Positions 8,209 to 56,929 of a DNA stretch of 64,000 nucleotides are shown piece after piece. A program made the translations under genes and the position numbers. Origin of the DNA: Cymbomonas tetramitiformis (lineage: Eukaryota; Chlorophyta; Pyramimonadophyceae; Pyramimonadales; Pyramimonadaceae). How positions within the stretch are numbered: position 1 is the first letter of the stretch; each line of letters begins with the position of its first letter. Where the stretch lies: assembly GCA_001247695.2 (NCBI GenBank), contig LGRX02033513.1:1-64000 (forward strand), written 5' to 3'. The notes under the pieces are model-generated. The model was not told where the DNA came from, searched no databases, and saw only the letters and a program-made list of their open reading frames with translations.

Positions 8209-8274
8209 CTAATAATCAGTTTATAAACCAGAGGATGGTGAAATCGAATCATGAATCAACAATTTGAAAAGTAC
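8187..8274 (-). other. 88-bp spliceosomal-type intron inside integrase
   Basis: On the minus strand it begins GTACTTTTC and ends TTTTTTTCATCCACAG, with CTGAT about 30 nt before the 3' end as a branch-point candidate. It contains stops in the pol frame. Removing it joins ...EDILR to CCCNDTSANSWEDKLPLVEF in frame, matching the spacing of the conserved LR...W..LPL.EFA.NN stretch of gypsy integrases. Basis: sequence plus family knowledge; splicing itself is inferred. Confidence 0.75.
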
Positions 8275-21650: not shown

Positions 21651-21733
21651 TGTCATAGGGTGGGGTGTGTGTCATCGGTCATTTTGCTTAAGTGTCATAG
21701 GGTGGGGTGTGTGTCATCGGTCATTTTGCTTAA
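21651..21733. repeat. 42-bp minisatellite, left of inserted element
   Basis: Two copies of the GTCATAGGGTGGGGTGTG unit also seen at 5319-5790. The array resumes at 23423 on the far side of the TTAA-flanked element. Confidence 0.9.
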
Positions 21734-23422
21734 CACCTTAAGGGCGAATTGCCATACTGCTCATACTGATCCTGTTTTCTAGGAACTTATTTTCACGTTT
21801 TCGGCAATAACTCAAGTTCTAGACATCCACTTGTGGCTACTATCCAAATTCATGGTCCTCCCACAAGGACCAACGCGCGATGACTATTATGAGTGTCACA
21901 TGGATCTTTGAGGCGTATATGTGCTTTTGGCATCATATTTATGAGTCAATTGAATAATTTCCCCTAGAGGATCGTCCACGCGTGTGCTAGAGGGGCGTGC
22001 TTAAAGGATGCGCTTTTGATATGTTTTTTATCGAAATCGTTGAAAAAAAGATGGTCCTCCCACAAGGACCATAGTCTTTAAGCGTCCTAGCGGTTGCATG
22101 GTGCGCGGTGTTGGCCGCTCATGGTTGCACACCTCGAGTTTATGACCAAATATGAAAACTTAGTTGGATAGTCCACACTCTAGTCGCCATCTGAGCACTC
22201 GTTTACCGTGGCGGGTGATCAGTCCCGAGTGAAATAAGGATTTTGTGATTTTTGCACTTCTAATTTTCACTTCGCGTCAAGCTAACGAGTGCTCATCGCT
22301 CACATACTTGCCCATATGACTTATGTTAAGCTTTCAAAAAATCATTTTATGGATATACTTCAAAAGTTTAAGCACCATACGCTCCTACCACACGGTGAAT
22401 GCACTCTAGCGGGCATCGTGGATAATAGGTCATGTTTGCACCGATTATCCCATTCCGGCTAAAAAAACCGACTAAAAAGGTGTACGGTTGTTAATAAGCA
22501 TTAGAGATGGCCAATATATGCACTCCAACATGACGTATGACCCAAATATGATGGGGACATGTGTATAAGATCGATATGATCGCATGGACGCAGGTGTAGC
22601 CTGCACATACTATTCCCAAAAAATTAGTGAAGATATCGTATCTTTTTATGCCTTTTTGAATTTTCAAAAAAAATGCATTCTGAAAAAATTGAGGGTGCTT
22701 GTCGCAAATGCGAACGCCATGGATATATAGGGTGGATCCAGGCCGGACCAAGCATCGAAGTAATTAATATATGTCCCATTGACACTAAAAATCATTGGGC
22801 GCGCCTTCTAGATCCGAACCAATGCCCAATTAAATTCTTGCAACATTGGTCCTTGTGGGAGGACCATAATCGATTATGGTCCTCCCACAAGGACCATGGG
22901 ATAGTAGCCATTTGCCACGATTCTTCGCATATATTATATTGCGGAACTAGGTGGATGATATGACACTTCATTATCACTCGCACCATATGTGCACACATGA
23001 ATATATGTGACCCATCATCACCATACTTAAGGAAATTCTGTTGAACAGCTGTTGGGGGCATTTTTGGGCATGCGCCATGAACATGCCACCACTATTGACT
23101 TGATGTTATGAGTGGGCGATGACGTATCATGGTGTATACCGATCGGGGGAAATACCATATCCTTGATTTGAAGCCTTTAGAGCACTCTCCACAGAGTACG
23201 CTTTTGTCACCTGGCAGCAGAACACCCCTGCACTTTCCACAAAGTCCTCCACTCGATAAACCGAGGTTGGTGGGCATTGAAGGGTTGAGGGACCTCGCCC
23301 AACTCCCCAATATGGACACTAATACTTCATAAATATCCAATAGTTGACTACCGTGGTAGTTATGGATGTTTCCGCCCTCATACTGATCACATACTGCTAA
23401 AAACGAATTCGCCCTTACGGTG
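21734..23422. mobile_element. TTAA-flanked non-autonomous DNA transposon, 1689 bp
   Basis: The ends are CACCTTAAGGGCGAATT and, inverted, CACCGTAAGGGCGAATT (16 of 17). Both flanks are TTAA (21730-21733 and 23423-23426), and excision with one TTAA restores the minisatellite unit CTTAAGTG. TTAA targets are the hallmark of the piggyBac superfamily; the CACC tip is unlike the usual CCC, so the family is inferred. The subterminal motif TCATACTGATC occurs in direct orientation near both ends. Internal frames are short and no transposase was recognised. It carries several copies of GGTCCTCCCACAAGGACC. Confidence 0.82.
22847..22896. repeat. Perfect 50-bp palindrome
   Basis: Two inverted copies of a TGGTCCTCCCACAAGGACCA motif meet at the centre ATAATCGATTAT. 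Single copies of the motif are at about 21853 and 22051 in the same element. It would extrude as a 25-bp stem or give a long RNA hairpin. Confidence 0.95.
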
Positions 23423-23720
23423 TTAAGTGTCATAGGGTGGGGTGTGTGTCATCGGTCATTTTGCTTAAGTGTCATAGGGTGGGGTGGGTGTCATCGGTCA
23501 TTTTTCTTAAGTGTCATTGGGTGTCATTTTTCTTAAGTTTTCTTAAGTTTTACTTATATCACCAACGTATAACTCCATCGGCCAATAGCTAACTGCAACG
23601 CTTAAATTTATACGTATGGAGGCTTGTGGGGGTTTATACGCAAAAATTTAAGAAAAGATAAGAAAACTTAAGAAAAGTTAAGCAAACTTAAGAAAACTTA
23701 AGCTAATACTTGTAGTAGTG
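23423..23720. repeat. 42-bp minisatellite remainder and TTAAG-rich inverted tract
   Basis: About 2.5 copies of the 42-bp unit (to ~23535), then CTTAAGTTTTCTTAAG-type sequence facing AAGAAAACTTAAGAAAAG (23640-23705) across ~100 bp. Confidence 0.75.
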
Positions 23721-25526: not shown

Positions 25527-26829
25527 ATGCTGAGCTACATAGCTCTAACCTTATTGTTCCTATATGCACAAAAAGCTTCCAGTCAAAGTACCACGGTAAA
25601 ACTCGGGCAGGTGACGCCGGAGTACTGTGCGAAGCACCGTGACGGAGTGGCGCTGGCGGTGGAGCTGATCAATGCCCAGAATGGGGGGCGCGGGTTCAAG
25701 GTGGGGTACTCGGGTCAGCACTACTTCCAGTTTGAGCACGTCTCGGTGGTGATTCCGGACGGCACCCAGGCGGACTATGAGCAGCTGCACCGCGATGCGG
25801 TGAGCGCTTTGCTGGAGGAGCATGATCCGGGGTTCATCGTGGGCAGCTGCTCCCAGGCCTCCGGGTACGAGAAAGACCTCGTGAACGCCGCCCAGAAGAT
25901 CCTTCTGGCGCAGGTGGGGCCTAACGCGTACTACGAAGATCAGCTGCCCTACATTTTCGGCATGCACATCTCCAGTTACCGGTACACCGAGCCCGCGCTG
26001 AAGCTGCTGTCGTTTGAGGGGGCCAAGACAGTGGCCATCGCCGGGCGCGAGCACTCCCTCTTCTTCAACACGACCTGCTCAAGTGCGGAGCAGTATGCGC
26101 TGGAGTTCGGCCTGAGCCTCGCCATGCCGCGGGTGGTGTACCCTGGGTCAGGCACGGAGAGCAAGGTGGGGGACGTGGCGTATCAGAGACAGCTTGCCAC
26201 GGACATCGCGCTTGCGGCGCCAGACATCATCATTGGGTGTGTTGGCAACGACGAGGCCAACGTGTGGGTGCAGACCTGGGAGGAGCTCGGCATCGAGCCG
26301 AAGGCAGTCTGGCTTACGTGCACCACGTGGGGCTGGCCGGCGGCTCTGGGCTTGAACGCGGGCAACGGCTCCTACATGCTTGGTGCCGGGCAGTGGCACG
26401 CCGACATGACTTGTGCGCACCTTCTGACAGCTGGCCCGCATCATTTCCCAGGGCCGTAGTTGACGCTGCGCTGCGCTCGGTGTCATACCAGGCTGCTGTT
26501 TGAATGTATGGTGGGGTGGCAGGGTGGTTGGGTGGGTGACTTGTCGGCCAGCATGCATCGCAGCCTTTCCCCCTTGATATATTCCCACAATGTGCATAGG
26601 GCATGTATGGGATGCGTGGTGGGTACTGGCTGCGTGTTTGCCTGGCCGGCCCATGATGCAATGAGAATGTTGAACAATGGTTTGAAGGGGATCTGCAGAC
26701 ACGGACCCCCTGGTGGGCACGGCGGACAACTTCTTGCAGCTCTACGAGGAGAAGTTTGGATACAGTGGGACGTATGACTCAGTGGCGTCATACACGATTG
26801 GCTATGTGTACATGCGAGCCCTGCAGAAG
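25527..26829 (+). CDS. Receptor unit 1: signal peptide plus flytrap module 1
   Basis: Exon 25527-26412 carries the signal peptide and most of flytrap 1. The intron 26413-26698 (GTGCGC...CTGCAG) is followed by exon 26699-26829, restoring ...HADMT-YTDPLVGTADNF in frame. The only residue difference I see from the other units in the repeated part is YALEFGLS (Phe) where the others read YALEYGLS. Identity with the other units starts at about 25605; the ~20 bases before that differ. Confidence 0.82.
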
Positions 26830-29800
26830 GTGCGCCATTTTCAGTTCTTATTCACGTGGCTTTGTCAATGGGTTTTATGGCAGTCGAGTGCGGTGTGGCA
26901 GGTGGGTATTATTTCCACGGTATTTATTCTCTGGATCTGTGAATTGCGATATGCAGCATGGACAAAGTGCTTGTGGTGCATGCCGTTTTCACTTGTATTG
27001 TTGCTTTGTTGGTAGGGTGGCTTTTTATAGAAATTTCTAATTCATATTATTTTCATTTCTATGTTCTGAAAAGTTGAGAACGGGAGTTGATCCCTGGACC
27101 TCCCGCTTTGATAATGGGCGCTCTACCACTGAGCTAATATTCCAACCATTCGATGTTGTTTTTGCCTTGCTTTTCTGATTTGCTCTTTACATCTTCCATT
27201 TTTTTATTCAAATATTCATATCTGCACAACCCGCTAATGACATTCACAGGCAAGCCGATGCCTTATTCCAGCCCCAAGAATCTTGCTAAGCGACGTTGAG
27301 GATGACAGTGACACGAAGGTGCTTTAGTGGGTATTCGGGAAGAATCTGTTACTGCCAAGAAGTGCTGACGGGCAATTGCTTGATTGGTGCTCTGCAGGCA
27401 TTCTTGGCCACCGATGTCGAGGACCCGGAGCAGCTTCTGCATGGCACAGACTACGAGTCCATCCGGCGCAGTCTGGAGACATTCAGCGAGCCTGATACGC
27501 TGTATGGCCCGGTGGCGTTTGACGCGACATACCAGCGCAACGTTGGACGGCAGCCCGCGACGTCACAGTTTCTGCCCTTGAATGAGTCCACGGGCGTAAT
27601 CAGCGACCAGTGTGTGGCGCCTCTGGACGTGGCCAGCGCTCAGATGGTGTACCCATCGCCAGGCGCATCGGGATGTCGCGCTGGCACAGTGTATGACCCC
27701 AGCAACGGGCAGTGTCTGCTGTGCAGCAAATGCACGGAGTGCACGGATGACAAGGTGTGCACAACTGTTGTGAAGCTGGGGCAGGTGACGCCGGAGTACT
27801 GTGCGAAGCACCGTGACGGAGTGGCGCTGGCGGTGGAGCTGATCAATGCCCAGAATGGGGGGCGCGGGTTCAAGGTGGGGTACTCGGGTCAGCACTACTT
27901 CCAGTTTGAGCACGTCTCGGTGGTGATTCCGGACGGCACCCAGGCGGACTATGAGCAGCTGCACCGCGATGCGGTGAGCGCTTTGCTGGAGGAGCATGAT
28001 CCGGGGTTCATCGTGGGCAGCTGCTCCCAGGCCTCCGGGTACGAGAAAGACCTCGTGAACGCCGCCCAGAAGATCCTTCTGGCGCAGGTGGGGCCTAACG
28101 CGTACTACGAAGATCAGCTGCCCTACATTTTCGGCATGCACATCTCCAGTTACCGGTACACCGAGCCCGCGCTGAAGCTGCTGTCGTTTGAGGGGGCCAA
28201 GACAGTGGCCATCGCCGGGCGCGAGCACTCCCTCTTCTTCAACACGACCTGCTCAAGTGCGGAGCAGTATGCGCTGGAGTACGGCCTGAGCCTCGCCATG
28301 CCGCGGGTGGTGTACCCTGGGTCAGGCACGGAGAGCAAGGTGGGGGACGTGGCGTATCAGAGACAGCTTGCCACGGACATCGCGCTTGCGGCGCCAGACA
28401 TCATCATTGGGTGTGTTGGCAACGACGAGGCCAACGTGTGGGTGCAGACCTGGGAGGAGCTCGGCATCGAGCCGAAGGCAGTCTGGCTTACGTGCACCAC
28501 GTGGGGCTGGCCGGCGGCTCTGGGCTTGAACGCGGGCAACGGCTCCTACATGCTTGGTGCCGGGCAGTGGCACGCCGACATGACTTGTGCGCACCTTCTG
28601 ACAGCTGGCCCGCATCATTTCCCAGGGCCGTAGTTGACGCTGCGCTGCGCTCGGTGTCATACCAGGCTGCTGTTTGAATGTATGGTGGGGTGGCAGGGTG
28701 GTTGGGTGGGTGACTTGTCGGCCAGCATGCATCGCAGCCTTTCCCCCTTGATATATTCCCACAATGTGCATAGGGCATGTATGGGATGCGTGGTGGGTAC
28801 TGGCTGCGTGTTTGCCTGGCCGGCCCATGATGCAATGAGAATGTTGAACAATGGTTTGAAGGGGATCTGCAGACACGGACCCCCTGGTGGGCACGGCGGA
28901 CAACTTCTTGCAGCTCTACGAGGAGAAGTTTGGATACAGTGGGACGTATGACTCAGTGGCGTCATACACGATTGGCTATGTGTACATGCGAGCCCTGCAG
29001 AAGGTGCGCCATTTTCAGTTCTTATTCACGTGGCTTTGTCAATGGGTTTTATGGCAGTCGAGTGCGGTGTGGCAGGTGGGTATTATTTCCACGGTATTTA
29101 TTCTCTGGATCTGTGAATTGCGATATGCAGCATGGACAAAGTGCTTGTGGTGCATGCCGTTTTCACTTGTATTGTTGCTTTGTTGGTAGGGTGGCTTTTT
29201 ATAGAAATTTCTAATTCATATTATTTTCATTTCTATGTTCTGAAAAGTTGAGAACGGGAGTTGATCCCTGGACCTCCCGCTTTGATCATGGGCGCTCTAC
29301 CACTGAGCTAATATTCCAACCATTCGATGTTGTTTTTGCCTTGCTTTTCTGATTTGCTCTTTACATCTTCCATTTTTTATTCAAATATTCATATCTGCAC
29401 AACCCGCTAATGACATTCACAGGCAAGCCGATGCCTTATTCCAGCCCCAAGAATCTTGCTAAGCGACGTTGAGGATGACAGTGACACGAAGGTGCTTTAG
29501 TGGGTATTCGGGAAGAATCTGTTACTGCCAAGAAGTGCTGACGGGCAATTGCTTGATTGGTGCTCTGCAGGCATTCTTGGCCACCGATGTCGAGGACCCG
29601 GAGCAGCTTCTGCATGGCACAGACTACGAGTCCATCCGGCGCAGTCTGGAGACATTCAGCGAGCCTGATACGCTGTATGGCCCGGTGGCGTTTGACGCGA
29701 CATACCAGCGCAACGTTGGACGGCAGCCCGCGACGTCACAGTTTCTGCCCTTGAATGAGTCCACGGGCGTGATCAGCGACCAGTGTGTGGCGCCTCTGGA

Positions 29801-32800
29801 CGTGGCCAGCGCTCAGATGGTGTACCCATCGCCAGGCGCATCGGGATGTCGCGCTGGCACAGTGTATGACCCCAGCAACGGGCAGTGTCTGCTGTGCAGC
29901 AAATGCACGGAGTGCACGGATGACAAGGTGTGCACAACTGTTGTGAAGCTGGGGCAGGTGACGCCGGAGTACTGTGCGAAGCACCGTGACGGAGTGGCGC
30001 TGGCGGTGGAGCTGATCAATGCCCAGAATGGGGGGCGCGGGTTCAAGGTGGGGTACTCGGGTCAGCACTACTTCCAGTTTGAGCACGTCTCGGTGGTGAT
30101 TCCGGACGGCACCCAGGCGGACTATGAGCAGCTGCACCGCGATGCGGTGAGCGCTTTGCTGGAGGAGCATGATCCGGGGTTCATCGTGGGCAGCTGCTCC
30201 CAGGCCTCCGGGTACGAGAAAGACCTCGTGAACGCCGCCCAGAAGATCCTTCTGGCGCAGGTGGGGCCTAACGCGTACTACGAAGATCAGCTGCCCTACA
30301 TTTTCGGCATGCACATCTCCAGTTACCGGTACACCGAGCCCGCGCTGAAGCTGCTGTCGTTTGAGGGGGCCAAGACAGTGGCCATCGCCGGGCGCGAGCA
30401 CTCCCTCTTCTTCAACACGACCTGCTCAAGTGCGGAGCAGTATGCGCTGGAGTACGGCCTGAGCCTCGCCATGCCGCGGGTGGTGTACCCTGGGTCAGGC
30501 ACGGAGAGCAAGGTGGGGGACGTGGCGTATCAGAGACAGCTTGCCACGGACATCGCGCTTGCGGCGCCAGACATCATCATTGGGTGTGTTGGCAACGACG
30601 AGGCCAACGTGTGGGTGCAGACCTGGGAGGAGCTCGGCATCGAGCCGAAGGCAGTCTGGCTTACGTGCACCACGTGGGGCTGGCCGGCGGCTCTGGGCTT
30701 GAACGCGGGCAACGGCTCCTACATGCTTGGTGCCGGGCAGTGGCACGCCGACATGACTTGTGCGCACCTTCTGACAGCTGGCCCGCATCATTTCCCAGGG
30801 CCGTAGTTGACGCTGCGCTGCGCTCGGTGTCATACCAGGCTGCTGTTTGAATGTATGGTGGGGTGGCAGGGTGGTTGGGTGGGTGACTTGTCGGCCAGCA
30901 TGCATCGCAGCCTTTCCCCCATGATATATTCCCACAATGTGCATAGGGCATGTACGGGGTGCGTGGTGGGTACTGGCTGCGTGTTTGCCTGGCCGGCCCA
31001 TGATGCAATGAGAATGTTGAACAATGGTTTGAAGGGGATCTGCAGACACGGACCCCCTGGTGGGCACGGCGGACAACTTCTTGCAGCTCTACGAGGAGAA
31101 GTTTGGATACAGTGGGACGTATGACTCAGTGGCGTCATACACGATTGGCTATGTGTACATGCGAGCCCTGCAGAAGGTGCGCCATTTTCAGTTCTTATTC
31201 ATGTGGCTTTGTCAATGGGTTTTATGGCAGTCGAGTGGGGTGTGGCAGGTGGTTATTATTTCCACGGTATTTATTCTCTGGATCTGTGAATTGCGATATG
31301 CAGCATGGACAAAGTGCTTGTGGTGCATGCCGTTTTCACTTGTATTGTTGCTTTGTTGGTAGGGTGGCTTTTTATAGAAATTTCTAATTCATATTATTTT
31401 CATTTCTATGTTCTGAAAAGTTGAGAACGGGAGTTGATCCCTGGACCTCCCGCTTTGATCATGGGCGCTCTACCACTGAGCTAATATTCCAACCATTCGA
31501 TGTTGTTTTTGCCTTGCTTTTCTGATTTGCTCTTTACATCTTCCATTTTTTTATTCAAATATTCATATCTGCACAACCCGCTAATGACATTCACAGGCGA
31601 GCCGATGCCTTATTCCAGCCCCAAGAATCTTGCTAAGCGACGTTGAGGATGACAGTGACACGAAGGTGCTTTAGTGGGTATTCGGGAAGAATCTGTTACT
31701 GCCAAGAAGTGCTGACGGGCACTTGCTTGATTGGTGCTCTGCAGGCATTCTTGGCCACCGATGTCGAGGACCCGGAGCAGCTTCTGCATGGCACAGACTA
31801 CGAGTCCATCCGGCGCAGTCTGGAGACATTCAGCGAGCCTGATACGCTGTATGGCCCGGTGGCGTTTGACGCGACATACCAGCGCAACGTTGGACGGCAG
31901 CCCGCGACGTCACAGTTTCTGCCCTTGAATGAGTCCACGGGCGTGATCAGCGACCAGTGTGTGGCGCCTCTGGACGTGGCCAGCGCTCAGATGGTGTACC
32001 CATCGCCAGGCGCATCGGGATGTCGCGCTGGCACAGTGTATGACCCCAGCAACGGGCAGTGTCTGCTGTGCAGCAAATGCACGGAGTGCACGGATGACAA
32101 GGTGTGCACAACTGTTGTGAAGCTGGGGCAGGTGACGCCGGAGTACTGTGCGAAGCACCGTGACGGAGTGGCGCTGGCGGTGGAGCTGATCAATGCCCAG
32201 AATGGGGGGCGCGGGTTCAAGGTGGGGTACTCGGGTCAGCACTACTTCCAGTTTGAGCACGTCTCGGTGGTGATTCCGGACGGCACCCAGGCGGACTATG
32301 AGCAGCTGCACCGCGATGCGGTGAGCGCTTTGCTGGAGGAGCATGATCCGGGGTTCATCGTGGGCAGCTGCTCCCAGGCCTCCGGGTACGAGAAAGACCT
32401 CGTGAACGCCGCCCAGAAGATCCTTCTGGCGCAGGTGGGGCCTAACGCGTACTACGAAGATCAGCTGCCCTACATTTTCGGCATGCACATCTCCAGTTAC
32501 CGGTACACCGAGCCCGCGCTGAAGCTGCTGTCGTTTGAGGGGGCCAAGACAGTGGCCATCGCCGGGCGCGAGCACTCCCTCTTCTTCAACACGACCTGCT
32601 CAAGTGCGGAGCAGTATGCGCTGGAGTACGGCCTGAGCCTCGCCATGCCGCGGGTGGTGTACCCTGGGTCAGGCACGGAGAGCAAGGTGGGGGACGTGGC
32701 GTATCAGAGACAGCTTGCCACGGACATCGCGCTTGCGGCGCCAGACATCATCATTGGGTGTGTTGGCAACGACGAGGCCAACGTGTGGGTGCAGACCTGG

Positions 32801-35800
32801 GAGGAGCTCGGCATCGAGCCGAAGGCAGTCTGGCTTACGTGCACCACGTGGGGCTGGCCGGCGGCTCTGGGCTTGAACGCGGGCAACGGCTCCTACATGC
32901 TTGGTGCCGGGCAGTGGCACGCCGACATGACTTGTGCGCACCTTCTGACAGCTGGCCCGCATCATTTCCCAGGGCCGTAGTTGACGCTGCGCTGCGCTCG
33001 GTGTCATACCAGGCTGCTGTTTGAATGTATGGTGGGGTGGCAGGGTGGTTGGGTGGGTGACTTGTCGGCCAGCATGCATCGCAGCCTTTCCCCCATGATA
33101 TATTCCCACAATGTGCATAGGGCATGTACGGGGTGCGTGGTGGGTACTGGCTGCGTGTTTGCCTGGCCGGCCCATGATGCAATGAGAATGTTGAACAATG
33201 GTTTGAAGGGGATCTGCAGACACGGACCCCCTGGTGGGCACGGCGGACAACTTCTTGCAGCTCTACGAGGAGAAGTTTGGATACAGTGGGACGTATGACT
33301 CAGTGGCGTCATACACGATTGGCTATGTGTACATGCGAGCCCTGCAGAAGGTGCGCCATTTTCAGTTCTTATTCATGTGGCTTTGTCAATGGGTTTTATG
33401 GCAGTCGAGTGGGGTGTGGCAGGTGGTTATTATTTCCACGGTATTTATTCTCTGGATCTGTGAATTGCGATATGCAGCATGGACAAAGTGCTTGTGGTGC
33501 ATGCCGTTTTCACTTGTATTGTTGCTTTGTTGGTAGGGTGGCTTTTTATAGAAATTTCTAATTCATATTATTTTCATTTCTATGTTCTGAAAAGTTGAGA
33601 ACGGGAGTTGATCCCTGGACCTCCCGCTTTGATCATGGGCGCTCTACCACTGAGCTAATATTCCAACCATTCGATGTTGTTTTTGCCTTGCTTTTCTGAT
33701 TTGCTCTTTACATCTTCCATTTTTTTATTCAAATATTCATATCTGCACAACCCGCTAATGACATTCACAGGCGAGCCGATGCCTTATTCCAGCCCCAAGA
33801 ATCTTGCTAAGCGACGTTGAGGATGACAGTGACACGAAGGTGCTTTAGTGGGTATTCGGGAAGAATCTGTTACTGCCAAGAAGTGCTGACGGGCACTTGC
33901 TTGATTGGTGCTCTGCAGGCATTCTTGGCCACCGATGTCGAGGACCCGGAGCAGCTTCTGCATGGCACAGACTACGAGTCCATCCGGCGCAGTCTGGAGA
34001 CATTCAGCGAGCCTGATACGCTGTATGGCCCGGTGGCGTTTGACGCGACATACCAGCGCAACGTTGGACGGCAGCCCGCGACGTCACAGTTTCTGCCCTT
34101 GAATGAGTCCACGGGCGTGATCAGCGACCAGTGTGTGGCGCCTCTGGACGTGGCCAGCGCTCAGATGGTGTACCCATCGCCAGGCGCATCGGGATGTCGC
34201 GCTGGCACAGTGTATGACCCCAGCAACGGGCAGTGTCTGCTGTGCAGCAAATGCACGGAGTGCACGGATGACAAGGTGTGCACAACTGTTGTGAAGCTGG
34301 GGCAGGTGACGCCGGAGTACTGTGCGAAGCACCGTGACGGAGTGGCGCTGGCGGTGGAGCTGATCAATGCCCAGAATGGGGGGCGCGGGTTCAAGGTGGG
34401 GTACTCGGGTCAGCACTACTTCCAGTTTGAGCACGTCTCGGTGGTGATTCCGGACGGCACCCAGGCGGACTATGAGCAGCTGCACCGCGATGCGGTGAGC
34501 GCTTTGCTGGAGGAGCATGATCCGGGGTTCATCGTGGGCAGCTGCTCCCAGGCCTCCGGGTACGAGAAAGACCTCGTGAACGCCGCCCAGAAGATCCTTC
34601 TGGCGCAGGTGGGGCCTAACGCGTACTACGAAGATCAGCTGCCCTACATTTTCGGCATGCACATCTCCAGTTACCGGTACACCGAGCCCGCGCTGAAGCT
34701 GCTGTCGTTTGAGGGGGCCAAGACAGTGGCCATCGCCGGGCGCGAGCACTCCCTCTTCTTCAACACGACCTGCTCAAGTGCGGAGCAGTATGCGCTGGAG
34801 TACGGCCTGAGCCTCGCCATGCCGCGGGTGGTGTACCCTGGGTCAGGCACGGAGAGCAAGGTGGGGGACGTGGCGTATCAGAGACAGCTTGCCACGGACA
34901 TCGCGCTTGCGGCGCCAGACATCATCATTGGGTGTGTTGGCAACGACGAGGCCAACGTGTGGGTGCAGACCTGGGAGGAGCTCGGCATCGAGCCGAAGGC
35001 AGTCTGGCTTACGTGCACCACGTGGGGCTGGCCGGCGGCTCTGGGCTTGAACGCGGGCAACGGCTCCTACATGCTTGGTGCCGGGCAGTGGCACGCCGAC
35101 ATGACTTGTGCGCACCTTCTGACAGCTGGCCCGCATCATTTCCCAGGGCCGTAGTTGACGCTGCGCTGCGCTCGGTGTCATACCAGGCTGCTGTTTGAAT
35201 GTATGGTGGGGTGGCAGGGTGGTTGGGTGGGTGACTTGTCGGCCAGCATGCATCGCAGCCTCTCCCCCATTATGCACGCAGCGGCCACAACGTGCATAGG
35301 GCATGTACGGGGTGCGTGGTGGGTACTGGCTGCGTGTTTGCCTGGCCGGCCCATGATGCAATGAGAATGTTGAACAATGGTTTGAAGGGGATCTGCAGAC
35401 ACGGACCCCCTGGTGGGCACGGCGGAAAACTTCTTGCAGCTCTACGAGGAGAAGTTTGGATACAGTGGGACGTATGACTCAGTGGCGTCATACACGATTG
35501 GCTATGTGTACATGCGAGCCCTGCAGAAGGTGCGCTGCATTTACAAGTATTGAGTTGTTTTGATCTGCGATTGATCACCTTGTCGTTATAATGCCAAGAA
35601 ACGAAATAAAGCAATGAAATTAAGAGGGAGAGGGGGGGAAGCCAATGTTGGTAATGATTGTTTTTTTGCATAGACAAGAACACTTGGCTCACACTGTCCG
35701 GCGAAGCGTTCTCAAGCGACATATGAACTGATTAGAGTGCCGGAATGCTAGTTCCATCTCGTAGCTTCGTGTGACACTTTGCACTCATCTTGGCGGTTAT

Positions 35801-38800
35801 ACAATTTTCGTTTATGATGCATCCCGGCCAAGCCCTTATCCCTGCAATCAATTTCTTGCGATTCAAGGCATCCCTTCCACTGCTCAATGACCTCGTTGGA
35901 GTTTTGAGATTTTGAGATCAAAGCTATCATTATCATTGCATGCTCAAGACTGAAACATTTGACTTAACCTCAGATGTAGTTGCTTTTTAGCTGACAGAAA
36001 CGATGTGCTCACCGCAGTGCCGCATAGCGCAGGAAGCCGCTTGCCTAATTTGTATGTCTTCGGATTCGCCTCTTTCGATTTCGACAGCGCGAGATCCTCC
36101 AAAGAACTATATCGGAGTTTTTAAAAGAAATCGGAGTGATGTGCCAGGAGCCATGCGCCACTTTACCATCATGTGAAGCGCGCGAACCTTAAAAATGCAC
36201 TGCTGCACAACGCTGCCGCCACCGTGCAGCAAATTCTCTACCAGCAGGATGACACCCGACTGACTCTTGCTGCAATCGTCGGCAGGCCTTCATCTCGACC
36301 AATGTGGAGGATCCGGATGCGCTCCTGGTAGGCGAAAAGTACGAGTCGATCCGGCGGTCCATGGAGATGCTCAATGAGCGCGACACGCTCTATGGCCCTG
36401 TAGCCTTCGACAGCACTTACCAGCGAAACGTGGGACGCCAACCCGCCACGAGCCAAATTCTACCCTTGAACGCCTCAACCTCCCTGTTTACAGACATGTG
36501 CGTCGCCCCCCTGGACGTGGCGCGCGCACAAATGGCATACCCCGCCCCCGGCGCGGATTACTGCGCCGCCGGGGAGCAGTACGACCCTAGTCAGATGCAG
36601 TGCCTGCTCTGCTCCAAGTGCGTGGAGTGCGATGATGCCAGCGAGGACTGCTGCGCCAAAGGCAATTTCGTGGATCCTGTGACGGGGCTCTGCGTACCAT
36701 GCCCAGCTGGGTCCTACTCGACCCGCTCGGGTGTCTCCGCATGCACGCCGTGCGGCCTCGGGGAGTATCAACCCTTCGAGGGGTCGAGCACAGGGTGCCT
36801 CAAATGTGGCCCGGGGGAGTTCGCCGACCAATACGGTAGCGCAGGGTGCCAGCTCTGTGAGCCAGGGCACTACAACGCGCTCAGCGGGCGCGAGCAGTGC
36901 GAGAGATGCGGCTTCGCAGAGTACCAGGAGGAGGCCGGAGCCACGGAGTGCATGCAGTGCCCTGAGCACACCAACAACTGGCAGCCCATAAACTTCATAC
37001 CTGTCGGGGGGGTCAACCAATACGTGCCAGCATCACGGCTGGAGTGCATGCCGCAGCAGGGCTATTTTGGCGAACCCGGGGCGCTGGCAACAGCTTGCTC
37101 AGAGGGGGGCACGTGTTGCGAGTGCCCAGCCTCCGACTCGGACGACGATTTGATGGCACGCATGGCAGCAGATCCGACCAGCTTCTGCTCGTGCGTGAGC
37201 GGGACGCGATTCCCATTTCCGCAGCCCGGGCATGTCCGCTCATTGCGGGACGACACCACCATGCTCGCGTGCCCGCAGGCAGAGGCGTGCCTCGGTGCGC
37301 CCAGGCTGTACAGGGACTCTGGCGTGGAGACAGAGATGAGGTATGGTGAGTGTGAGGTTGGGTATGGAGGGCGCCTATGCGGTGGATGCGACGCTGGTGA
37401 AGGCTACTATGCAATGGACCGTAAATGTGAGCAGTGCCAAGATAAGATCGAAAGTCAGGTAGGCACTGGACGGTTTCCTAGAACTTTATCCAATCAAGCC
37501 TCGACGCACATCGCACAGATCCATATATGTATGGATGCATAGAGCAGCCTGCTCGATGGTTTGTCTTGTGAGAGAAAGGTTTTGGGCGTGCTGACCTTCC
37601 TAGTGGGTGCCTCTTAGTGCATCGTGTTTTAACGCTCTCTGATATTGCCCTTGCATTCACCACTGTGGCCTTCCCCATCTCGGGGACCTCAGCACCCAAG
37701 TCCGGCATCAGCATCAAGGCGCAGGTTGTGGTGACAGTCGCAGTCGGCGCCGCCCTTGAGCCGAGCTCAGAGCAAGTCAGTGACCACTTGTGATTGATGC
37801 TGGCGTTTCTCTGTCATTTTTCATCCACAAGGCATTATCCGCTGACTCGCAGTTGCCGGTCATCGGGTACTGCGCGGCACGCCAAACTGTGCCGCATCCT
37901 GTAAAACTTTGCCGCTTCATTGAGAGTCGTGAAGTTATAGTTCCATGCATCGATCTGCATGGACCTGCAGTGCAAAGCTGGATGAGCTCCCAGTTAGGAC
38001 ACCACATTTTTGGCTGTGATTCATGTGTGTGGTGGATCCGCTTCGCGCTTGGTTTGGGATGTGTCGAGGTGGTTGGTATCTTGCCACGGCCCCGCCCTGT
38101 TCCTGAATGCTTGGTACTCCACTGGGATGATGGTGGGCTGGGTTTTGTCAGCGGATCTCATGCCGTTCAGTGTGTTTGTGAGCGCACTTAACCACGGAAG
38201 AAAACAATGCGGGACTGCCGTGCTGGAACAGCTAACAGCAGCTCACACTGGCCTACTTGGTTAGGATGTGTGCCGCATGTCTTATCACAGCCCCACCCTG
38301 TTACTGCACACTTCCCTTCTCTACTGGGATGGTGGTGGACTGGCACTGATCGGCGTGCCTCGCGCCATTTTGTGAACGTGTGTCCTAAGTGCCATGTGTC
38401 AGTACGAATAGATTTCCCCTCCGAATCCCTTTCAGCTTTTGCCTTACCTGGGCGCGAACACCCTCCTGAATTCTGGCCATATGCGACCTGTGTTGCCATT
38501 GAAGCGTTCCCTTCTGCCCAGTGTTGGCGTATCTGCTGGGTAGGATATGTGTAAGTAGGATTGTATGGAGTCTGGCTGTAGCCCTGCCTTGTCCTTAGAC
38601 CTGGCCCATATGTAATGGTCCTCCTGCGCCGACACGGCATGCCGTCCACAGGTGATTCACGTTTGGAACCCACATTCTGGTATGGTTAGCAGAAAGTCAG
38701 TGGCATGTATACAACCTTTCCCACTGCGCTGATGTGGCAGGTGGTGCAACACACGAGTGTAGCGAAACATCGTCAGTGAGCTTTTGCACCCTCCCACACC

Positions 38801-40924
38801 CAATATGTAGGCTTCCGCGGTATGATATGAGGGCGATGACTGAAGATATGCAACGTTCTGCACTTGCAGGTGTTCTATTTCATTGTCCTGATGCTTATCA
38901 TGATTACCGCCATGACGTATGCTGTGCGAAAGGGGGCCATCTTTTTCAAGAATGGCGCTATATCTGTGCTATGTGACTTTGCGCAGATGCAGTCCCTGTT
39001 CTACACATACGACCTGAACTGGCCTACACTCACCTCCGGAGTGCTCGCCAGCTTCTCCATCATGAACTTGAACATTGACATGTTCGGGGCGGCTTGCTTG
39101 TTCCCAAGTGACTTGTCTTGGTACGACAGCTGCGTGATGAAGATGATGATGCCGCTCATGATTGTGGCCGGCTTTGGCGCTGTCTACTTGGTGTTCTATG
39201 TGCTGTACTTGTTCGACTACTACGACGAAATGAAGCACCAGCTCCACACGGCGCACTGCGTTAACGCCACGCTCTTCGCCATCTCGTTCATGTACTCGTA
39301 CATGGCGGACACCAGCTTGTCCATCTTTCACTGCATCGAGTTTGATGACGGCTCTACATATCTATACTCGTACCCAGAGCTTGAGTGCGGCACTCCAGAA
39401 TATTGGCGTTACGCTGGCACCCTTGGATTCCTCGGCATTATGGGGTACGCCACTGCGGTACCCGTTGTCTGGTTCTGGTTCCTTCGCAAGAACAAGGCGC
39501 ACCTGCGAGACCCGATCTTCAAGAAGCACTATGGGGCATTGTACGTGGTATACACAGAAGATTTCTACTACTGGGAGGTGATCGTCAAGCTCAAAAAGCT
39601 AGTCACATTGGTTGTGGTGATTTTCTTGCCCAACAATTTGGCTGTGCAGGTGCTGTCTGGGGTGATCACGATGCTTGCAATCATCTTGCTTGGATCGGTC
39701 ACGTACCCAATGCGATTTGCTTATAACAACAGCATTGATACTGTTGCCACCGCGGGGAACTATCTCACCCTGATTTTCGGCTTTTACTTTTGGTCAGAGA
39801 AGTTGGATGATAACGAGCACACTCTTATGACATCTCTCTTCCTTATGTCAAATATAGTTGTTGTGGCGATTATCGTGCATGCCATTGTGTATGAGTACAT
39901 CGCTCACTACTTGCCCAAGCTTGCCGCGACGGAGGACCCAGCAGCTAAATTCTTGGTCAAGCTGCTATTACATCCCATCGTTGACAAGGCGTTTCAAAGC
40001 AAGAGGCTGCTGAAGTTCCCTTGCCACTGGAGCGTCACCGATGAATATCTCGGGGAAAAGATCATGAATGAGGGAGGTGAGCAGGCGAGACGAGAGCGCA
40101 GGGAGTCAAGTCTAAATAGCTTCAACGGAGTAGACTTGCATGATGTACTTGGATCTAAGGAAGATGTGGGCGCCGCCTTGAATGGGAACAGTGACATGAA
40201 TTCTACAAAATCAAAACAGCTGTGGACGACTGTCCGCAAGAGTATGGCATTAGACAAGATTGAAGCGGTTAGGCACTCCAGGAAGAGTGTTAAAATGAGA
40301 GCTGCAGACATAATTGCTTCCATCAAAGGGCAGACGCTGGAGGACCTGAATTCAGTGCAGCGGGAAAAACTGGTCGAGTGTCTATTTCATCCAGAAATTC
40401 CGTCTTTTAATGTCATTCAAGAATGGAAGGAGGTGAATCAACGGCAGTACAATGACATGAATCTAGCACTTTTGAGTTTAACGGAGTACCTCAAGTTCCA
40501 GGCAATGCAACGAAGGCAGCCTTTAAATAACTCCTTAACGTCACCTAATGCCACAGCGACTCTAGGCTTCCAGGATACCAGGCAGAGAGAGGATGATATA
40601 ATAACGGACCCCCTCATACAGATAATTGCAGCTGCGCATGATGAAATTCGGAGGTCCATTGAGGTATCTAGAAAGTCGCTTGAGGTTGCAGTTGCAAAAC
40701 GCAAGTCATTTGAGGTTGCAGTTGAGGAACCTCAGGAAAGATGGGCGCAACCTTCACCCAGACAATCGCCATCCCAAAAAAGCCGCGCACTTGTGTCCAG
40801 CGAGGAAGGATCAGTGGCAAGAAAAAGTTTATCAGCAGCCGGCAAGACAAGGATGAATAAGGCGCACACAGCCGTCTTTGATGAGAATATATCCAATCCT
40901 GGTGCACTAGACCCGCACCGCTGA
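25527..40924 (+). CDS. Giant membrane receptor with five tandem Venus-flytrap domains
   Basis: Modelled exons: 25527-26412, 26699-26829, 27398-28586, 28873-29003, 29571-30759, 31046-31176, 31745-32933, 33220-33350, 33919-35107, 35399-35529, 36286-37458, 38870-40924. All junctions are GT-AG and keep frame, giving about 3174 residues. A signal peptide (MLSYIALTLLFLYAQKASSQ) leads into five ligand-binding modules of the periplasmic-binding-protein / ANF-receptor fold (VKLGQVTPEYCAKHRDG, AVELINAQNGGRGF, IVGSCSQASG, DIIIGCVGNDEANVW). A GCC2/ephrin-receptor-like cysteine region, a multi-pass membrane domain and a cytoplasmic tail follow. The order flytrap, cysteine-rich, membrane resembles class C receptors, but the membrane part has no obvious GPCR motif. 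Ligand unknown. Start choice: the ATG immediately precedes a good signal peptide. Splicing is predicted only. Confidence 0.8.
26413..26698 (+). other. Receptor intron 1 (repeated five times)
   Basis: 286 bp in unit 1 (291 bp in unit 5), GTGCGC...GATCTGCAG. It is GC-rich with GGTGGG runs. Retained, it would truncate the protein at a TAG ~45 nt into the intron. Confidence 0.75.
26830..27397 (+). other. Receptor intron 2 (repeated), contains antisense tRNA-like sequence
   Basis: About 568 bp, GTGCGCC...CTCTGCAG, in units 1-4. It carries a 74-bp tRNA-like sequence on the opposite strand. The corresponding intron of unit 5 (35530-36285) is unrelated in sequence. Confidence 0.75.
27073..27146 (-). 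tRNA. tRNA-like sequence or tRNA pseudogene in receptor intron 2
   Basis: Minus strand, 74 nt. The D-arm/A-box TAGCTCAGTGGTAGAGC is perfect; the T-arm/B-box GGGATCAACTCC is degenerate. The acceptor ends GTTGGAA and TCTCAAC pair at 6 of 7 positions, and TTTT follows directly as a Pol III terminator. The anticodon stem has a mismatch, position 33 is not U, and the spacing before the D-arm is abnormal, so a functional tRNA is doubtful. Further copies are at 29247-29320, 31420-31493 and 33594-33667; those read GATCATGGG where this one reads GATAATGGG (plus strand). Confidence 0.5.
27398..29003 (+). CDS. Receptor unit 2: end of flytrap 1, flytrap module 2
   Basis: Exon 27398-28586 begins AFLATDVEDPEQLL, completes the preceding flytrap domain (LYGPVAFDATYQRNVG), adds a small cysteine cluster (CLLCSKCTECTDDKVCTT), and without an intron starts the next flytrap (VVKLGQVTPEYC). 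Intron 28587-28872 and exon 28873-29003 follow. Together the two exons are 1320 nt, exactly 440 codons, so units can be added or lost without a frameshift. Confidence 0.82.
29571..31176 (+). CDS. Receptor unit 3: flytrap module 3
   Basis: Exons 29571-30759 and 31046-31176; same architecture and length as unit 2. The coding sequence is identical apart from a silent change (GGCGTGATC here, GGCGTAATC in unit 2). Introns match too, including the antisense tRNA-like sequence in the preceding intron. Confidence 0.82.
31745..33350 (+). CDS. Receptor unit 4: flytrap module 4
   Basis: Exons 31745-32933 and 33220-33350, same architecture and length as unit 2. Its introns share variants with unit 5 and the end of unit 3 (GGCACTTGCTTGATTGG, GGCGAGCCGATGCC), so the right-hand units are closest relatives. 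Confidence 0.82.
33919..35529 (+). CDS. Receptor unit 5: flytrap module 5
   Basis: Exons 33919-35107 and 35399-35529. It differs from the others by GTAENF (Glu) instead of GTADNF and by a changed patch in intron 1 (about 35273-35290). Homology to the other units stops just after the donor GTGCGC at 35530, so this is the right end of the recent array. It splices to the diverged terminal exon at 36286. Confidence 0.8.
35530..36285 (+). other. Intron between flytrap unit 5 and the terminal exon
   Basis: 756 bp starting GTGCGC and ending CGTCGGCAG. Its sequence is not related to intron 2 of the other units. No other feature seen. Confidence 0.65.
36286..37458 (+). CDS. Receptor terminal extracellular exon: flytrap end and cysteine-rich repeats
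   Basis: 391 codons, phase 0 at both ends. It opens AFISTNVEDPDALL, a clearly diverged relative of the AFLATDVEDPEQLL exon of the repeats, and completes flytrap 5. Four GCC2/ephrin-receptor-like modules follow (CPAGSYSTRSGVSACTPC, CGLGEYQPFEGSSTGCLKC, CGPGEFADQYGSAGCQLC, CEPGHYNALSGREQCERC). A second cysteine block ends CEVGYGGRLCGGCDAGEGYY. It acts as the stalk before the membrane domain. The donor is CAG/GTAGGC at 37459. Confidence 0.85.
37459..38869 (+). other. Receptor intron before the membrane exon, possible small exon
   Basis: 1.4 kb. At 37640-37775 it is GC-rich and open; an acceptor-like GCGCAG and a donor-like CAA/GTCAGT bound a 51-nt phase-0 segment (VVVTVAVGAALEPSSEQ) that could be an extra exon. 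About 38040-38600 holds two to three diverged ~200-bp repeats containing CCTGTT(A/C)CTG and CTACTGGGATG(A/G)TGGTGG. The final acceptor is CACTTGCAG at 38869. Confidence 0.45.
38870..40924 (+). CDS. Receptor membrane domain and cytoplasmic tail exon
   Basis: 684 codons in one exon beginning VFYFIVLMLIMITAMTYAV. About seven to nine membrane segments, roughly exon residues 1-19, 85-112, 128-150, 180-205, 237-285 (two), 298-315 and 328-352. Between them are the DLNWPTL...FSIMNLNIDMFG stretch and the ELECGTPEYW / YYWEVIVKLKKLV motifs, which I know from multi-pass domains at the C-termini of cysteine-rich receptors of algae and oomycetes. The tail (residues ~360-684) is charged and rich in kinase-type sites (RKSM, RKSV, RRSIEVSRKSLE, RKSF, RKSL). 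Channel or signalling function is not decided by the sequence. Confidence 0.82.
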   Translation: MFYFIVLMLIMITAMTYAVRKGAIFFKNGAISVLCDFAQMQSLFYTYDLNWPTLTSGVLASFSIMNLNIDMFGAACLFPSDLSWYDSCVMKMMMPLMIVAGFGAVYLVFYVLYLFDYYDEMKHQLHTAHCVNATLFAISFMYSYMADTSLSIFHCIEFDDGSTYLYSYPELECGTPEYWRYAGTLGFLGIMGYATAVPVVWFWFLRKNKAHLRDPIFKKHYGALYVVYTEDFYYWEVIVKLKKLVTLVVVIFLPNNLAVQVLSGVITMLAIILLGSVTYPMRFAYNNSIDTVATAGNYLTLIFGFYFWSEKLDDNEHTLMTSLFLMSNIVVVAIIVHAIVYEYIAHYLPKLAATEDPAAKFLVKLLLHPIVDKAFQSKRLLKFPCHWSVTDEYLGEKIMNEGGEQARRERRESSLNSFNGVDLHDVLGSKEDVGAALNGNSDMNSTKSKQLWTTVRKSMALDKIEAVRHSRKSVKMRAADIIASIKGQTLEDLNSVQREKLVECLFHPEIPSFNVIQEWKEVNQRQYNDMNLALLSLTEYLKFQAMQRRQPLNNSLTSPNATATLGFQDTRQREDDIITDPLIQIIAAAHDEIRRSIEVSRKSLEVAVAKRKSFEVAVEEPQERWAQPSPRQSPSQKSRALVSSEEGSVARKSLSAAGKTRMNKAHTAVFDENISNPGALDPHR

Positions 40925-46399: not shown

Positions 46400-49300
46400 T
46401 CAGCGGTCTCCACGAGGCAGGTTCATGACACCCAGTCGCTCTCGATGCACACGAAATACAGGGAGTGCCAGGGGCTTGGTCATGATGTCAGCGGTGTTGT
46501 CATCTGTCCCAGTGTATAGCGCCTCTGTGTCCTTGGCCTTGATCAACTCCCTGATGTACATGTTCCTGACCTCGATGTGCTTGGATCTGGAGTTGTTCAC
46601 GTAGTTGGTGGCCAGGTGAATGGCTCCCTGGTTGTCACAGTACATGGGCACTGGCCTGCATATGTCCACCAGGGAGTCCAGCACGTTGAGAACATACTTG
46701 ACTTCACGAGCTCCCTCAGACATAGCGATAATCTCGGCCTCGGTAGTGGATAGGGACACGCTCTTCTGGATCATGGACGAGAATATGATCAGACTCCCAC
46801 ATAGGAATACTGCAATGCCAGAGGTGCTCCTTCTGGTTACCTTGCACCCAGCATAGTCGGAGTCAGTGTAGATGGATAGGGGCAAGGGCCTGCTTGGTCC
46901 AGTACCACCCCCCCCAGGCACTGAAGCAGTGCGCAGCACCAGCTCGTAGTCCTTGGTGCCCTTCAGGTACCTCACCACCTGCTTCAGGGCCATGAAGTGC
47001 TCTGGACCATACGTGGTGCAGAACCTCGAGAGAACCGATACTGCCGCCATTATGTCAGGCCGGCTGCAGCGAGCCACCCACTGCAGCTGCCCCAGGAGAG
47101 CCCTGTAGGGCATAGCTCCCTTGCCATCAGCAGGTTCCAGTGCAGTGCCAGGTGACATTGGCAGGCTCGCTGGCTTGGCATCATCCAGGCCATAGGTACT
47201 GATGATCTGGGTGATATAACCAGACTGGCATAGGTATGCTGTGTCACTCCCCCAGCGCACCCCGATGCCCATGACCAGGTCCAACACTCCAAGATCCTTG
47301 CATGCATACTGCGCATGGAAGGATGACACAAAAGTATCATACCAGGACTTGTCATTGGTGGCCACCAGATAGTCATCGACATAGGCCAAGATGATCACTT
47401 GGAGAGTGGAGTCCCGGATGAAGTACAGGCATGGCTCCACGTCACTTCTCTTCATTCTGGGGTCATACCCCATGATGAATGCATCTGAGGTGTCGAACCA
47501 CTCCTTGCCCGCCTGCTTGAGTCCATATACAGCTTTCAGTAGCTTGGCACACCTGTGCCCCCCATAATCCAGCCCTCGGGGAAGGCGCACATACAGGTCC
47601 TCCTCGAGCACGGAGTTCAGGAAAGCAGTGTCCACGTCCATGTGGTACACTGTGAGGCCCAGGTTGAGGGCGAGGGTAATGACAACTCTCACAGAGGACA
47701 GCTGGGTGCACGGGGCGAAGGTGTCGTAGTAGTCCACGCCATACTCCTGCTTGTTCCCTCGCACACACACTCTGCTCTTCCTCTTCAGCAGCTCCCGGTT
47801 CTTGTCCAACTTGACCTTGAGGACCAGAGACATCTCCAGCAGCTTCACCCCAGTTGGCACGTTCTCCTCATCCAGCATCTGCAGAGCCCCCTTGATCTGC
47901 ACCAGCGCCTCCAGCTCATCCTGAATAGAGCTGAGCCATTCAGCACAGTCAGGCGCTGTCAATACCTGAACATGAGATCTTGGCTCAGTCACCCCTGCAG
48001 GCAGCAGGGCTTCCTGAGCAGCTGGTTTTCCAGTTTCCTGCACACCAAGGCATGTGTGTGTAGGTGGAAATCGAACATCTCCCTCAGGCAGGTCCAACAT
48101 GGTGAAGTTGGTGAGGAGCACCAAGCAGTAGGGTTGAGCATGTGGCCCAAGAGCACGTCCACACACCATGGCTTCCTCGTAGTCCCCCTTCCCTGTCACA
48201 GCGCGCACCTCGGTGAAGAGTGGATAGTGGGCATTGATACTCCCATATGTAGGGCAGTCCCTCAGTAGTGACAGGCGCTCACTGCCTGGCTCGAGATATG
48301 AGCTCAAGCTCACCCAGCACACGTCGTCAGAGGTCTCCACCTTCACAACAGCCACAATCTCGTCACTACCTTCAGGGATGTACACACCCTGCTCCAGCAC
48401 AGCAGTCTTCAACAGCGTAGGCGGAGGATCCATGTAGGGCGCATCCAGAGTGGTGGCCATGAAGTTGGTCTTGAGAGGGGTCACTGCAGAAGGGTCCCAT
48501 GAGGTGATCACCTTACCCAGCGTGTCCAGCTTCTCCGAGAAGGTAACCATACCAGAGTTGACCACCTTGCCAGCATCACAATCATATAGTAGATAGGCAG
48601 ATGACACCTCTGAGTGTCCAACATATCTGATCTCACGTGCCCGGTTGCTGAGCTTGTGTTCACGGACCGTGGGGTCAATGAAGGGATAGGCCCTGCATCC
48701 AAATATCCGTAACTGGGACAGGTCAGCGTGCTTGTTCCTGGTAAGGTAGTAGGATGAAGTCCACCCCAGAGCCTTGCGGAACGTGCGGTTGAGGATGTAC
48801 ACTGCATGGCGGGTGGCCAGAGGCCACATACTTGAACCAAACCCAGAGGTCAGCAGAAGTGCTCTGGCCATAGCTTGCACATCTCGGTGTGACCTCTCCA
48901 CCCTCGCCTGGTTCTCGTGCAGGTACGGTGAGCCATGCCTCTGCTCAATCCCATGTTCCTCACAGAAGGCTGCAGTCTGTCCAGCTATCATGGTGCTGTC
49001 GCCATCGGTGTGGAGCACCATGTGGTACTCACTGGATAGGCCCATGGTGCTCCTCAGGCGCTTCACCTCCTTCAGATATTGCTGGAAGGTCTGGAGGTAG
49101 TCCGACTTGACCTTCAGGTAGAAGATGGATATCCATGTAGTGCAGTCATCAACAAATAGTGCAAACCACCTGAACCCCCCAGCACTGACCCTGAAAGGCC
49201 CACAGGTATCTGACCACACAAGATTGCCCAGCTCTTTGGACAGCTCCCTCCCTGTGGGCTTCACAGTAGGCCGGATGGCTTTGGTCAGCCTGCAGGCAAT

Positions 49301-53404: not shown

Positions 53405-53487
53405 AGTGAATTCTCTTACGCGCAGCGGAAAATTTGCGTGATAAACAAAAATGGATCCTCACTTACAACGTAAGTGGGCCCATAACC

Positions 53488-54640: not shown

Positions 54641-54847
54641 TCTTCAAGCCCAAGCCCAAGACAAGAATGATTCTTTGTTACAACTTTCCAACGATTGGAA
54701 CGACTCACCAGCATAGACAAAGGGGAGTCCCCTCCTTAGCAATGTAAAGTGAGTCCGCTAAAGTCATTCTTTTCAAGCAAAAACACTTGCAGTTTGCTTC
54801 GGCGAATTTCATGTCTGTGATCAAAGAAAACTTACGTTATGCGGAGG

Positions 54848-55627
54848 AGCGTGCAAGGCAAGCCGCGCCACTGCGAGAGATTGATCGCAAGCTACCTCGG
54901 CGTGCAAGGCAAGCCGCGCCACTGCGAGAGATCGATCACAAGCTACCTCGCCGTGCAAGGCAAGCCGCGACACTGCGAGAGATCGATCACAAGCTACCTC
55001 GCCGTGCAAGGCAAGCCGCGCCACTGCGAGAGATCGATCACAAGCTACCTCGCCGTGCAAGGCAAGCCGCGCCACTGCGAGAGATCGATCACAAGTTACC
55101 TCGGCGTGCAAGGTGCCAAGCTACCACGGCGTGCAAGGCAAGCCGCGCCACTGCGAGAGATCGATCACAAGCTACCTCGCCGTGCAAGCGAGAGATCGAT
55201 CACAAGCTACCTCGCCGTGCAAGGTAAACCACGCCACTGCGAGAGATCGATCACAAGCTACCTCGGCGTGCAAGGCAAGCCGCGCCACTGCGAGGGATCG
55301 ATCACAAGCTGCCTCCGCGTGCAAGGCAAGCCGCACCACTGCGAGAGATCGATCACAAGCTACCTCGCCGTGCAAGGTAAACCACGCCACTGCGAGAAAT
55401 CGATCGCAAGCTACCTCGGCGTGCAAGGCAAGCCGCGCCACTGCGAGAGATCAATCGCAAGTTACCTCGGCGTGCAAGGCAAGCCGCGCCACTGCGAGAA
55501 ATCGATCACAAGCTACCTCGCCGTGCAAGGTAAGCCGCGCCACTGCGAGAGATCGATCACAAGTTACCTCGGCGTGCAAGGCAAGCCGCGCCACTGCGAG
55601 AGATCGATCGCAAGCTACCTCGGCGTG
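54848..55627. repeat. 51-bp minisatellite, ~15 copies, open on both strands
   Basis: Unit GTGCAAGGCAAGCCGCGCCA + CTGCGAGAGATCGATCACAA + GCTACCTCGCC. As 51 is 17 codons, one frame reads VQGKPRHCERSITSYLA over and over (54839-55852, 337 codons); other frames on both strands are long too. The simplest reading is a minisatellite; a repetitive protein cannot be excluded from sequence alone. Confidence 0.93.
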
Positions 55628-55629
55628 AT

Positions 55630-56660: not shown

Positions 56661-56929
56661 TCGTTCAGAACCTGCTTTCCTCGAAGCTCACAACTCACTA
56701 TCGCCGCATTGTGCAAAACTGCGGGATGGCCACGCAACAACATCGCTCGATCTGCTGTCTCGCCCTTGCCACTCAAACGTCTCTCGCCTACCCCCCCTCC
56801 CCCCCCGGGCCACTCCCAGACCTGTAGTACTTGAGTTTTTTCTTGGTGGACTTGCTCAGGTTGTTAACGTGAACCTTGAAGGTGTCCTCCACGTTATGGC
56901 CACGTAGCACTGCTCTTGCCCATCCGAGG

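Follow-up and report, generated by a model that had tools for sequence, protein, structure and literature searches.

Tandem near-identical flytrap modules in a putative receptor gene of Cymbomonas tetramitiformis

A 12-exon gene and its surroundings

The window analyzed here is a 64-kb stretch of Cymbomonas tetramitiformis DNA whose plus strand carries a long intron-bearing gene at positions 25527 to 40924. Twelve exons joined at GT-AG sites form a continuous reading frame that opens with the ATG at 25527, closes with the stop codon ending at 40924, and encodes 3174 amino acids with a single terminal stop (Table 1). A previous interpretation of the same DNA without database searches (the sequence-only reading) had proposed one splice-compatible gene of about 3174 residues, and our exon model arrives at the same length. 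No internal stop or frameshift was found in any of the 12 exons, and the terminal diverged exon and the membrane/tail exon were each open over their full length in 0 of 2000 base shuffles, so that these frames are not chance products. GC content in the joined exons is 0.757 at codon position 3 compared to 0.583 at position 1 and 0.434 at position 2. Such a high GC3, the GT-AG introns, and the retroelements in the window would suit a eukaryotic alga. The putative signal peptide in exon 1 was judged by eye and is not listed by a 19-residue hydropathy scan at threshold 1.3.

Table 1. Exons of the flytrap gene and extent of its tandem array (positions in the window).
Feature	Positions	Strand	Basis
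Exon 1: start codon, putative signal peptide, most of module 1 flytrap	25527..26412	+	GT donor, frame
Exon 2, unit 1: flytrap C-terminal part	26699..26829	+	AG acceptor, GT donor, in phase
Exon 3: module 1 flytrap end, Cys-rich linker, module 2 flytrap start	27398..28586	+	Splice model
Short exon, unit 2	28873..29003	+	Splice model
Module 2 end, linker, module 3 start	29571..30759	+	Splice model
Short exon, unit 3	31046..31176	+	Splice model
Module 3 end, linker, module 4 start	31745..32933	+	Splice model
Short exon, unit 4	33220..33350	+	Splice model
Module 4 end, linker, module 5 start	33919..35107	+	Splice model
Short exon, unit 5	35399..35529	+	Splice model
Terminal diverged exon: last 62 flytrap residues of module 5, then Ephrin_rec_like Cys-rich stalk	36286..37458	+	Splice model, profile
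Last exon: membrane domain, 314-residue tail	38870..40924	+	Splice model, hydropathy scans
Homogenized tandem array, ~4.6 units of 2174 bp, introns included	25605..35535	+	Repeat comparison

We rejected the reading of the units as separate tandem genes on sequence grounds, as only one start/signal region and one membrane exon are seen. Within the window, tblastn located neither a second membrane exon below E 0.4 nor a second stalk below E 2, apart from the first 46 stalk residues, which recur in all four linkers. An extra small exon in intron 2 (from ~27250) was considered and left out of the model, the neighboring exons joining in phase without it. The same intron of units 1 to 4 bears a tRNA-like stretch on the minus strand (27073-27144, 29247-29318, 31420-31491, and 33594-33665) that was picked up only by a relaxed ARAGORN run making 131 calls across the window. 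We claim no tRNA gene at this place, with no call by ARAGORN at default settings and none by Rfam at gathering scores. The unit 5 counterpart of intron 2 has no blastn match to the introns of units 1 to 4 that carry this stretch.

Elsewhere, the window also holds mobile and repetitive DNA. A 2352-codon frame of Ty1/copia type occupies 46400-53458 on the minus strand (RVT_2, 151 bits; Pol_BBD, 28.9 bits; rve, 31.5 bits and just below cutoff) and contains, at residues 1195-1280 between Pol_BBD and the integrase, a DNA N6-adenine methyltransferase domain of Dam type (PF05869, 33.7 bits against a cutoff of 28.1; TIGR01712, 31.3 bits and well short of the cutoff of 97). An excerpt of PMC5890265 describes Dam-like domains from DIRS elements, and the titles of the best 8 of 358 literature matches name none in a copia element. 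A Ty3/gypsy-type retroelement lies at 7453-12708 on the minus strand with gag, reverse transcriptase, RNase H, integrase, and chromodomain in separate open frames; its integrase has H2C2, and rve is just below cutoff. The dimerization region of a hAT transposase was found at 61452-62018 on the minus strand (48.2 bits). Repetitive stretches open in several frames at 54821-55852 and 56873-57487 of the plus strand are likely minisatellites, and an 83-base repeat with a 42-base subunit occurs at two places about 1.7 kb apart within 21651-23552.

Structure and age of the flytrap array

Five direct repeats of about 2174 bp start at 25596, 27770, 29943, 32117, and 34291 (spacings of 2174, 2173, 2174, and 2174), and the encoded modules start at residues 25, 465, 905, 1345, and 1785, an exact period of 440 amino acids with all copies in frame. 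The sole indel among units 1 to 4 is a single base at 27199; as this only length difference falls into an intron, each unit stays in frame. Across their 440 residues, modules 2, 3, and 4 show no difference, and module 1 departs from them at a single position (F/Y at module residue 170), giving 439-440/440 identity among modules 1 to 4. Module 5 equals module 4 through residue 315 save for D281E and diverges from the exon starting at residue 316, with 47 of its last 62 flytrap residues (encoded by the terminal exon) identical to module 4. It is a chimera of an array-type front and a last stretch of 62 flytrap residues from a diverged exon. The description of five virtually identical flytraps in the sequence-only reading is therefore accurate for modules 1 to 4 but not for module 5 from residue 316 onward.

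At the nucleotide level, unit pairs differ at 7 (1-2), 14 (1-3), 14 (1-4), 9 (2-3), 9 (2-4), and 0 (3-4) of 2174 columns with the 5' seam included, and the array comprises four distinct unit sequences (unit 1, unit 2, units 3 and 4 as one, and unit 5). The 5' seam consists of 3 differences in the first 9 bases of the repeats (25598, 25601, and 25604, within 25596-25604), all of them synonymous. On the other side, the identity of unit 5 with unit 4 ends 6 bases into the unit 5 intron, at 35535, and a blastn search of the window with this 756-base intron gave no further match at E up to 0.01. Five is the module count of the assembled sequence, and the true number is best taken as putative, given that units 3 and 4 are identical over 2174 columns.

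The terminal exon is of a different age. Over 121 codons aligned with the repeated exon, 85 of 121 residues are kept and 29 of 44 compared four-fold sites differ; the NG86 estimates are dN 0.28 and dS 1.61 (dN/dS ~0.18), with dS best read as near saturation because its maximum-likelihood estimate ran away (21.3). Judged by these distances, the terminal exon is old (dS ~1.6) and the array young (0-14 differences per 2174 bp), pointing to a recent amplification or homogenization of an older module. Recent amplification of a single-flytrap gene would have left the terminal exon as similar as the other units, which it is not. The old terminal exon next to near-identical sequence throughout the array instead implies that at least two diverged versions of the C-terminal part of the module predate homogenization. 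These may have been either two modules of one gene or two recombined paralogues, alternatives that our analysis does not separate.

Differences within the array tend to spare the exons. Among units 1 to 4, with the 9-base seam left out, 2 of 1311 exon columns differ compared to 10 of 859 intron columns (binomial p = 0.0026, assuming 12 independent differences, which conversion can violate). Between units 4 and 5, we counted 1 difference in 948 exon columns and 12 in 297 intron columns, the latter including an inserted patch and thus not independent. This pattern supports the view that the repeated exons are probably used as protein.

Domains of the encoded protein

The spliced flytrap of module 5 aligns with positions 22-329 of the 343-position Peripla_BP_6 profile at 52.6 bits (cutoff 31.7), and its ANF_receptor match of 20.6 bits is below the cutoff of 25.4. 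Weaker Peripla_BP_6 matches were obtained for unspliced frames, one over exon 3 (27290-28633; 32.5 bits) and one extending exon 1 (25527-26459; 31.4 bits and just below the same cutoff), and no NCBIfam family was matched up to E=1. By these profiles, the flytrap is a type I periplasmic-binding domain. By tblastn, 5 of 72,556 plasmid records match it at E up to 0.01. The best match is a Sinorhizobium substrate-binding protein of an amino acid ABC transporter (E 1e-5, 26.7% identity, 63% of the query) whose gene adjoins branched-chain amino acid permease genes. At E up to 0.001, this Sinorhizobium protein has 28 distinct matches among sequences of solved structure, largely leucine-, Leu/Ile/Val-, amino-acid/amide-, or urea-binding proteins or putative ones. 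In an alignment of three sequences, the region around the expected ligand residues is poorly matched between the flytrap and its bacterial relatives, and GSCSQA stands against their GPY(T/S)SG. As, moreover, the flytrap has no match among PDB sequences up to E=10, we can but guess that the ligand may be a small polar molecule, possibly amino-acid-like. Scans of viral contigs and prokaryote genome contigs, which reach close relatives only, confirmed none.

The stalk encoded by the terminal exon matches Ephrin_rec_like in four stretches (50.7 bits, cutoff 23.1), the only Pfam family found up to E=10, with no NCD3G. No Pfam family, including 7tm_3 and Lig_chan, was matched up to E=10 by the last exon or its first 370 residues, and no NCBIfam family up to E=1; histidine kinase, PAS, and receiver domains were absent from the last exon at these same thresholds. 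Its PDB matches were three kinesin KIF18A sequences (E 0.79-0.90) that we took as chance. A 19-residue Kyte-Doolittle scan at threshold 1.3 lists 7 hydrophobic segments in the membrane part, and similarly crude scans at looser settings report 9 on the Eisenberg scale or 10 on the Kyte-Doolittle scale (threshold 0.8). Provided that the flytraps face outward, a count of 7 or 9 helices would place the tail inside and a count of 10 outside. Single-sequence AlphaFold2 models reached a pLDDT of 40.9 for the membrane domain and 35.6 for a second model, too low for use. The 314-residue tail has 5 RKS sites compared to 0.18 expected, a number reached by 0 of 5000 shuffles. A broader basophilic pattern occurs 8 times compared to 2.9 expected (reached by 7 of 2000 shuffles), and part of the excess in both counts sits in a short internal repeat.

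The anatomy that the sequence-only reading had proposed, one gene with five flytraps followed by a cysteine-rich stalk, a polytopic membrane domain, and a tail with phosphosite-like motifs, is supported by repeats, exon model, profiles, and hydropathy scans. The stalk is backed by the Ephrin_rec_like match in the terminal exon, the multi-pass membrane domain by the 7 to 10 hydrophobic segments of the last exon, and the kinase-site-rich tail by the RKS excess over shuffled sequence.

Relation to known systems and interpretation

The same reading had also drawn a comparison with class C-type receptors, which normally have one flytrap, but our searches do not support it and we do not accept membership in this class. 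Class C GPCRs share with it the order of flytrap, cysteine-rich region, multi-pass membrane domain, and tail, but the protein described here has five flytraps, its stalk is Ephrin_rec_like rather than NCD3G, and its membrane exon has no match to 7tm_3 or any other Pfam family up to E=10; a helix count of 7 to 10 does not decide the matter. Excerpts of PMC12716839 report no non-animal receptor with both ANF and NCD3G and mention that choanoflagellates and other close relatives of animals have glutamate-family receptors with Ephrin_rec-like domains, and a social amoeba receptor survey has Ephrin_rec_like and Peripla_BP_6 among its abbreviations (excerpt of PMC10445921). Unlike ionotropic glutamate receptors, our protein lacks a Lig_chan pore domain in its last exon as judged by Pfam. 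Protist proteins that combine an Ephrin_rec_like (GCC2/GCC3) stalk with a multi-pass membrane domain resemble it in stalk type and rough topology, whereas five amplified flytraps set the present protein apart. LivJ-like type I periplasmic binding proteins of amino-acid ABC transporters belong to the same fold family (by profile and tblastn), but the flytraps studied here are tethered, repeated, and encoded in an intron-bearing gene, and in the three-sequence alignment their N-terminus is shorter and residues around the expected ligand motif are altered.

Serial flytraps ahead of a membrane part are otherwise known from sensor kinases of the BvgS family (BvgS and EvgS). Tandem flytraps of BvgS are described in PMC8534201, and bacterial BvgS homologues carry one to five flytraps according to PMC4352136 (excerpts in both cases). 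In contrast to BvgS and EvgS, the protein described here has near-identical modules of Peripla_BP_6 type, a polytopic membrane domain, and introns, and no kinase, PAS, or receiver domain was found in its last exon. To call this a candidate for an undescribed biological system was too strong as regards the principle: to judge from the excerpted literature, tandem flytraps are not new in kind, and stacked flytraps and a stalk of this type are already known. What does stand is that neither a eukaryotic protein with several tandem flytraps nor the combination of five near-identical Peripla_BP_6 modules with an Ephrin_rec_like stalk was found among the literature matches listed, which is no proof of its being unpublished.

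With moderate confidence, we favor the explanation that the gene encodes a eukaryotic cell-surface receptor-like protein, most likely a multivalent small-molecule sensor. Its 440-residue unit, a type I periplasmic-binding flytrap with a short cysteine-rich linker, would be repeated five times above the Ephrin_rec_like stalk, the polytopic membrane domain, and a presumably cytosolic tail. Ligand binding would close the flytraps, the linkers and the stalk would relay closure to the membrane domain, and the output may be tuned by tail phosphorylation. Avidity and a dependence on copy number, both suggested by the sequence-only reading, would be hypothetical features of such a sensor. The near-identity of the modules would stem from recent unequal crossing-over or gene conversion that overwrote an older diverged state, with putative relics of it left in the terminal exon and in the initial codons of module 1. 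Since the membrane domain matches no family, receptor function is inferred, and the odds of the multivalent sensor do not depend on the helix count.

Other explanations concern either the array or the membrane domain. It is possible, albeit unlikely, that the assembly inflated the unit number by laying near-identical units or allelic variants end to end, with fewer modules (perhaps two or three) at the true locus. The full identity of units 3 and 4 would also fit an assembly duplication, and the grouping of unit 1 with unit 2 and of unit 3 with unit 4 could reflect two haplotypes. However, the four distinct unit sequences argue against this scenario, no fewer than two flytraps are needed to account for the linker junction within the array and for the distinct seams at its 5' and 3' ends, and the old terminal exon indicates that more than one version of the C-terminal part of the module already existed. 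We find it highly improbable that the array is decaying or nonfunctional following a recent tandem duplication inside the gene, with copies not under selection. Its very young age and the retroelements elsewhere in the window would be compatible with decay, but the intact frames of all 12 exons, the contrast between exon and intron differences, and the low dN/dS between the old exon pair speak against it.

For the membrane domain, a multi-flytrap channel or transporter that conducts or moves a solute and is gated or fed by the flytraps seems doubtful. The missing 7tm_3 match, the possible 9 or 10 membrane segments, and the service of the nearest flytrap relatives found in ABC transporters are in line with this idea, yet the membrane exon matches no transport or channel family in Pfam up to E=10 or NCBIfam up to E=1 and a long tail with RKS sites would be more usual in signaling proteins. 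We also regard as very unlikely a class C GPCR so diverged that the 7tm_3 profile no longer recognizes its seven-helix domain. This scenario would account for the seven hydrophobic segments at the strict threshold and the class C order of flytrap, stalk, and tail, and it is in keeping with the Ephrin_rec-like domains reported for non-animal glutamate-family receptors (PMC12716839, excerpt), but it has to contend with a membrane exon devoid of Pfam matches up to E=10, with 9 or 10 segments at looser thresholds, and with a stalk lacking NCD3G.

Returning to the multivalent sensor, a speculative and rather unlikely extension is that the ligand-binding domain, introns included, behaves as an intragenic minisatellite. 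Unequal exchange would then change the number of flytraps in frame while keeping the copies identical, so that individuals would differ in receptor valency and hence in sensitivity or cooperativity. If real, the locus would provide a natural test of how repeating one ligand-binding clamp affects the sensitivity of a receptor and would illustrate how an entire domain, along with its introns, can vary in copy number without loss of the reading frame. With its old diverged exon next to young identical modules, it may also make concerted evolution within one receptor gene measurable in populations.
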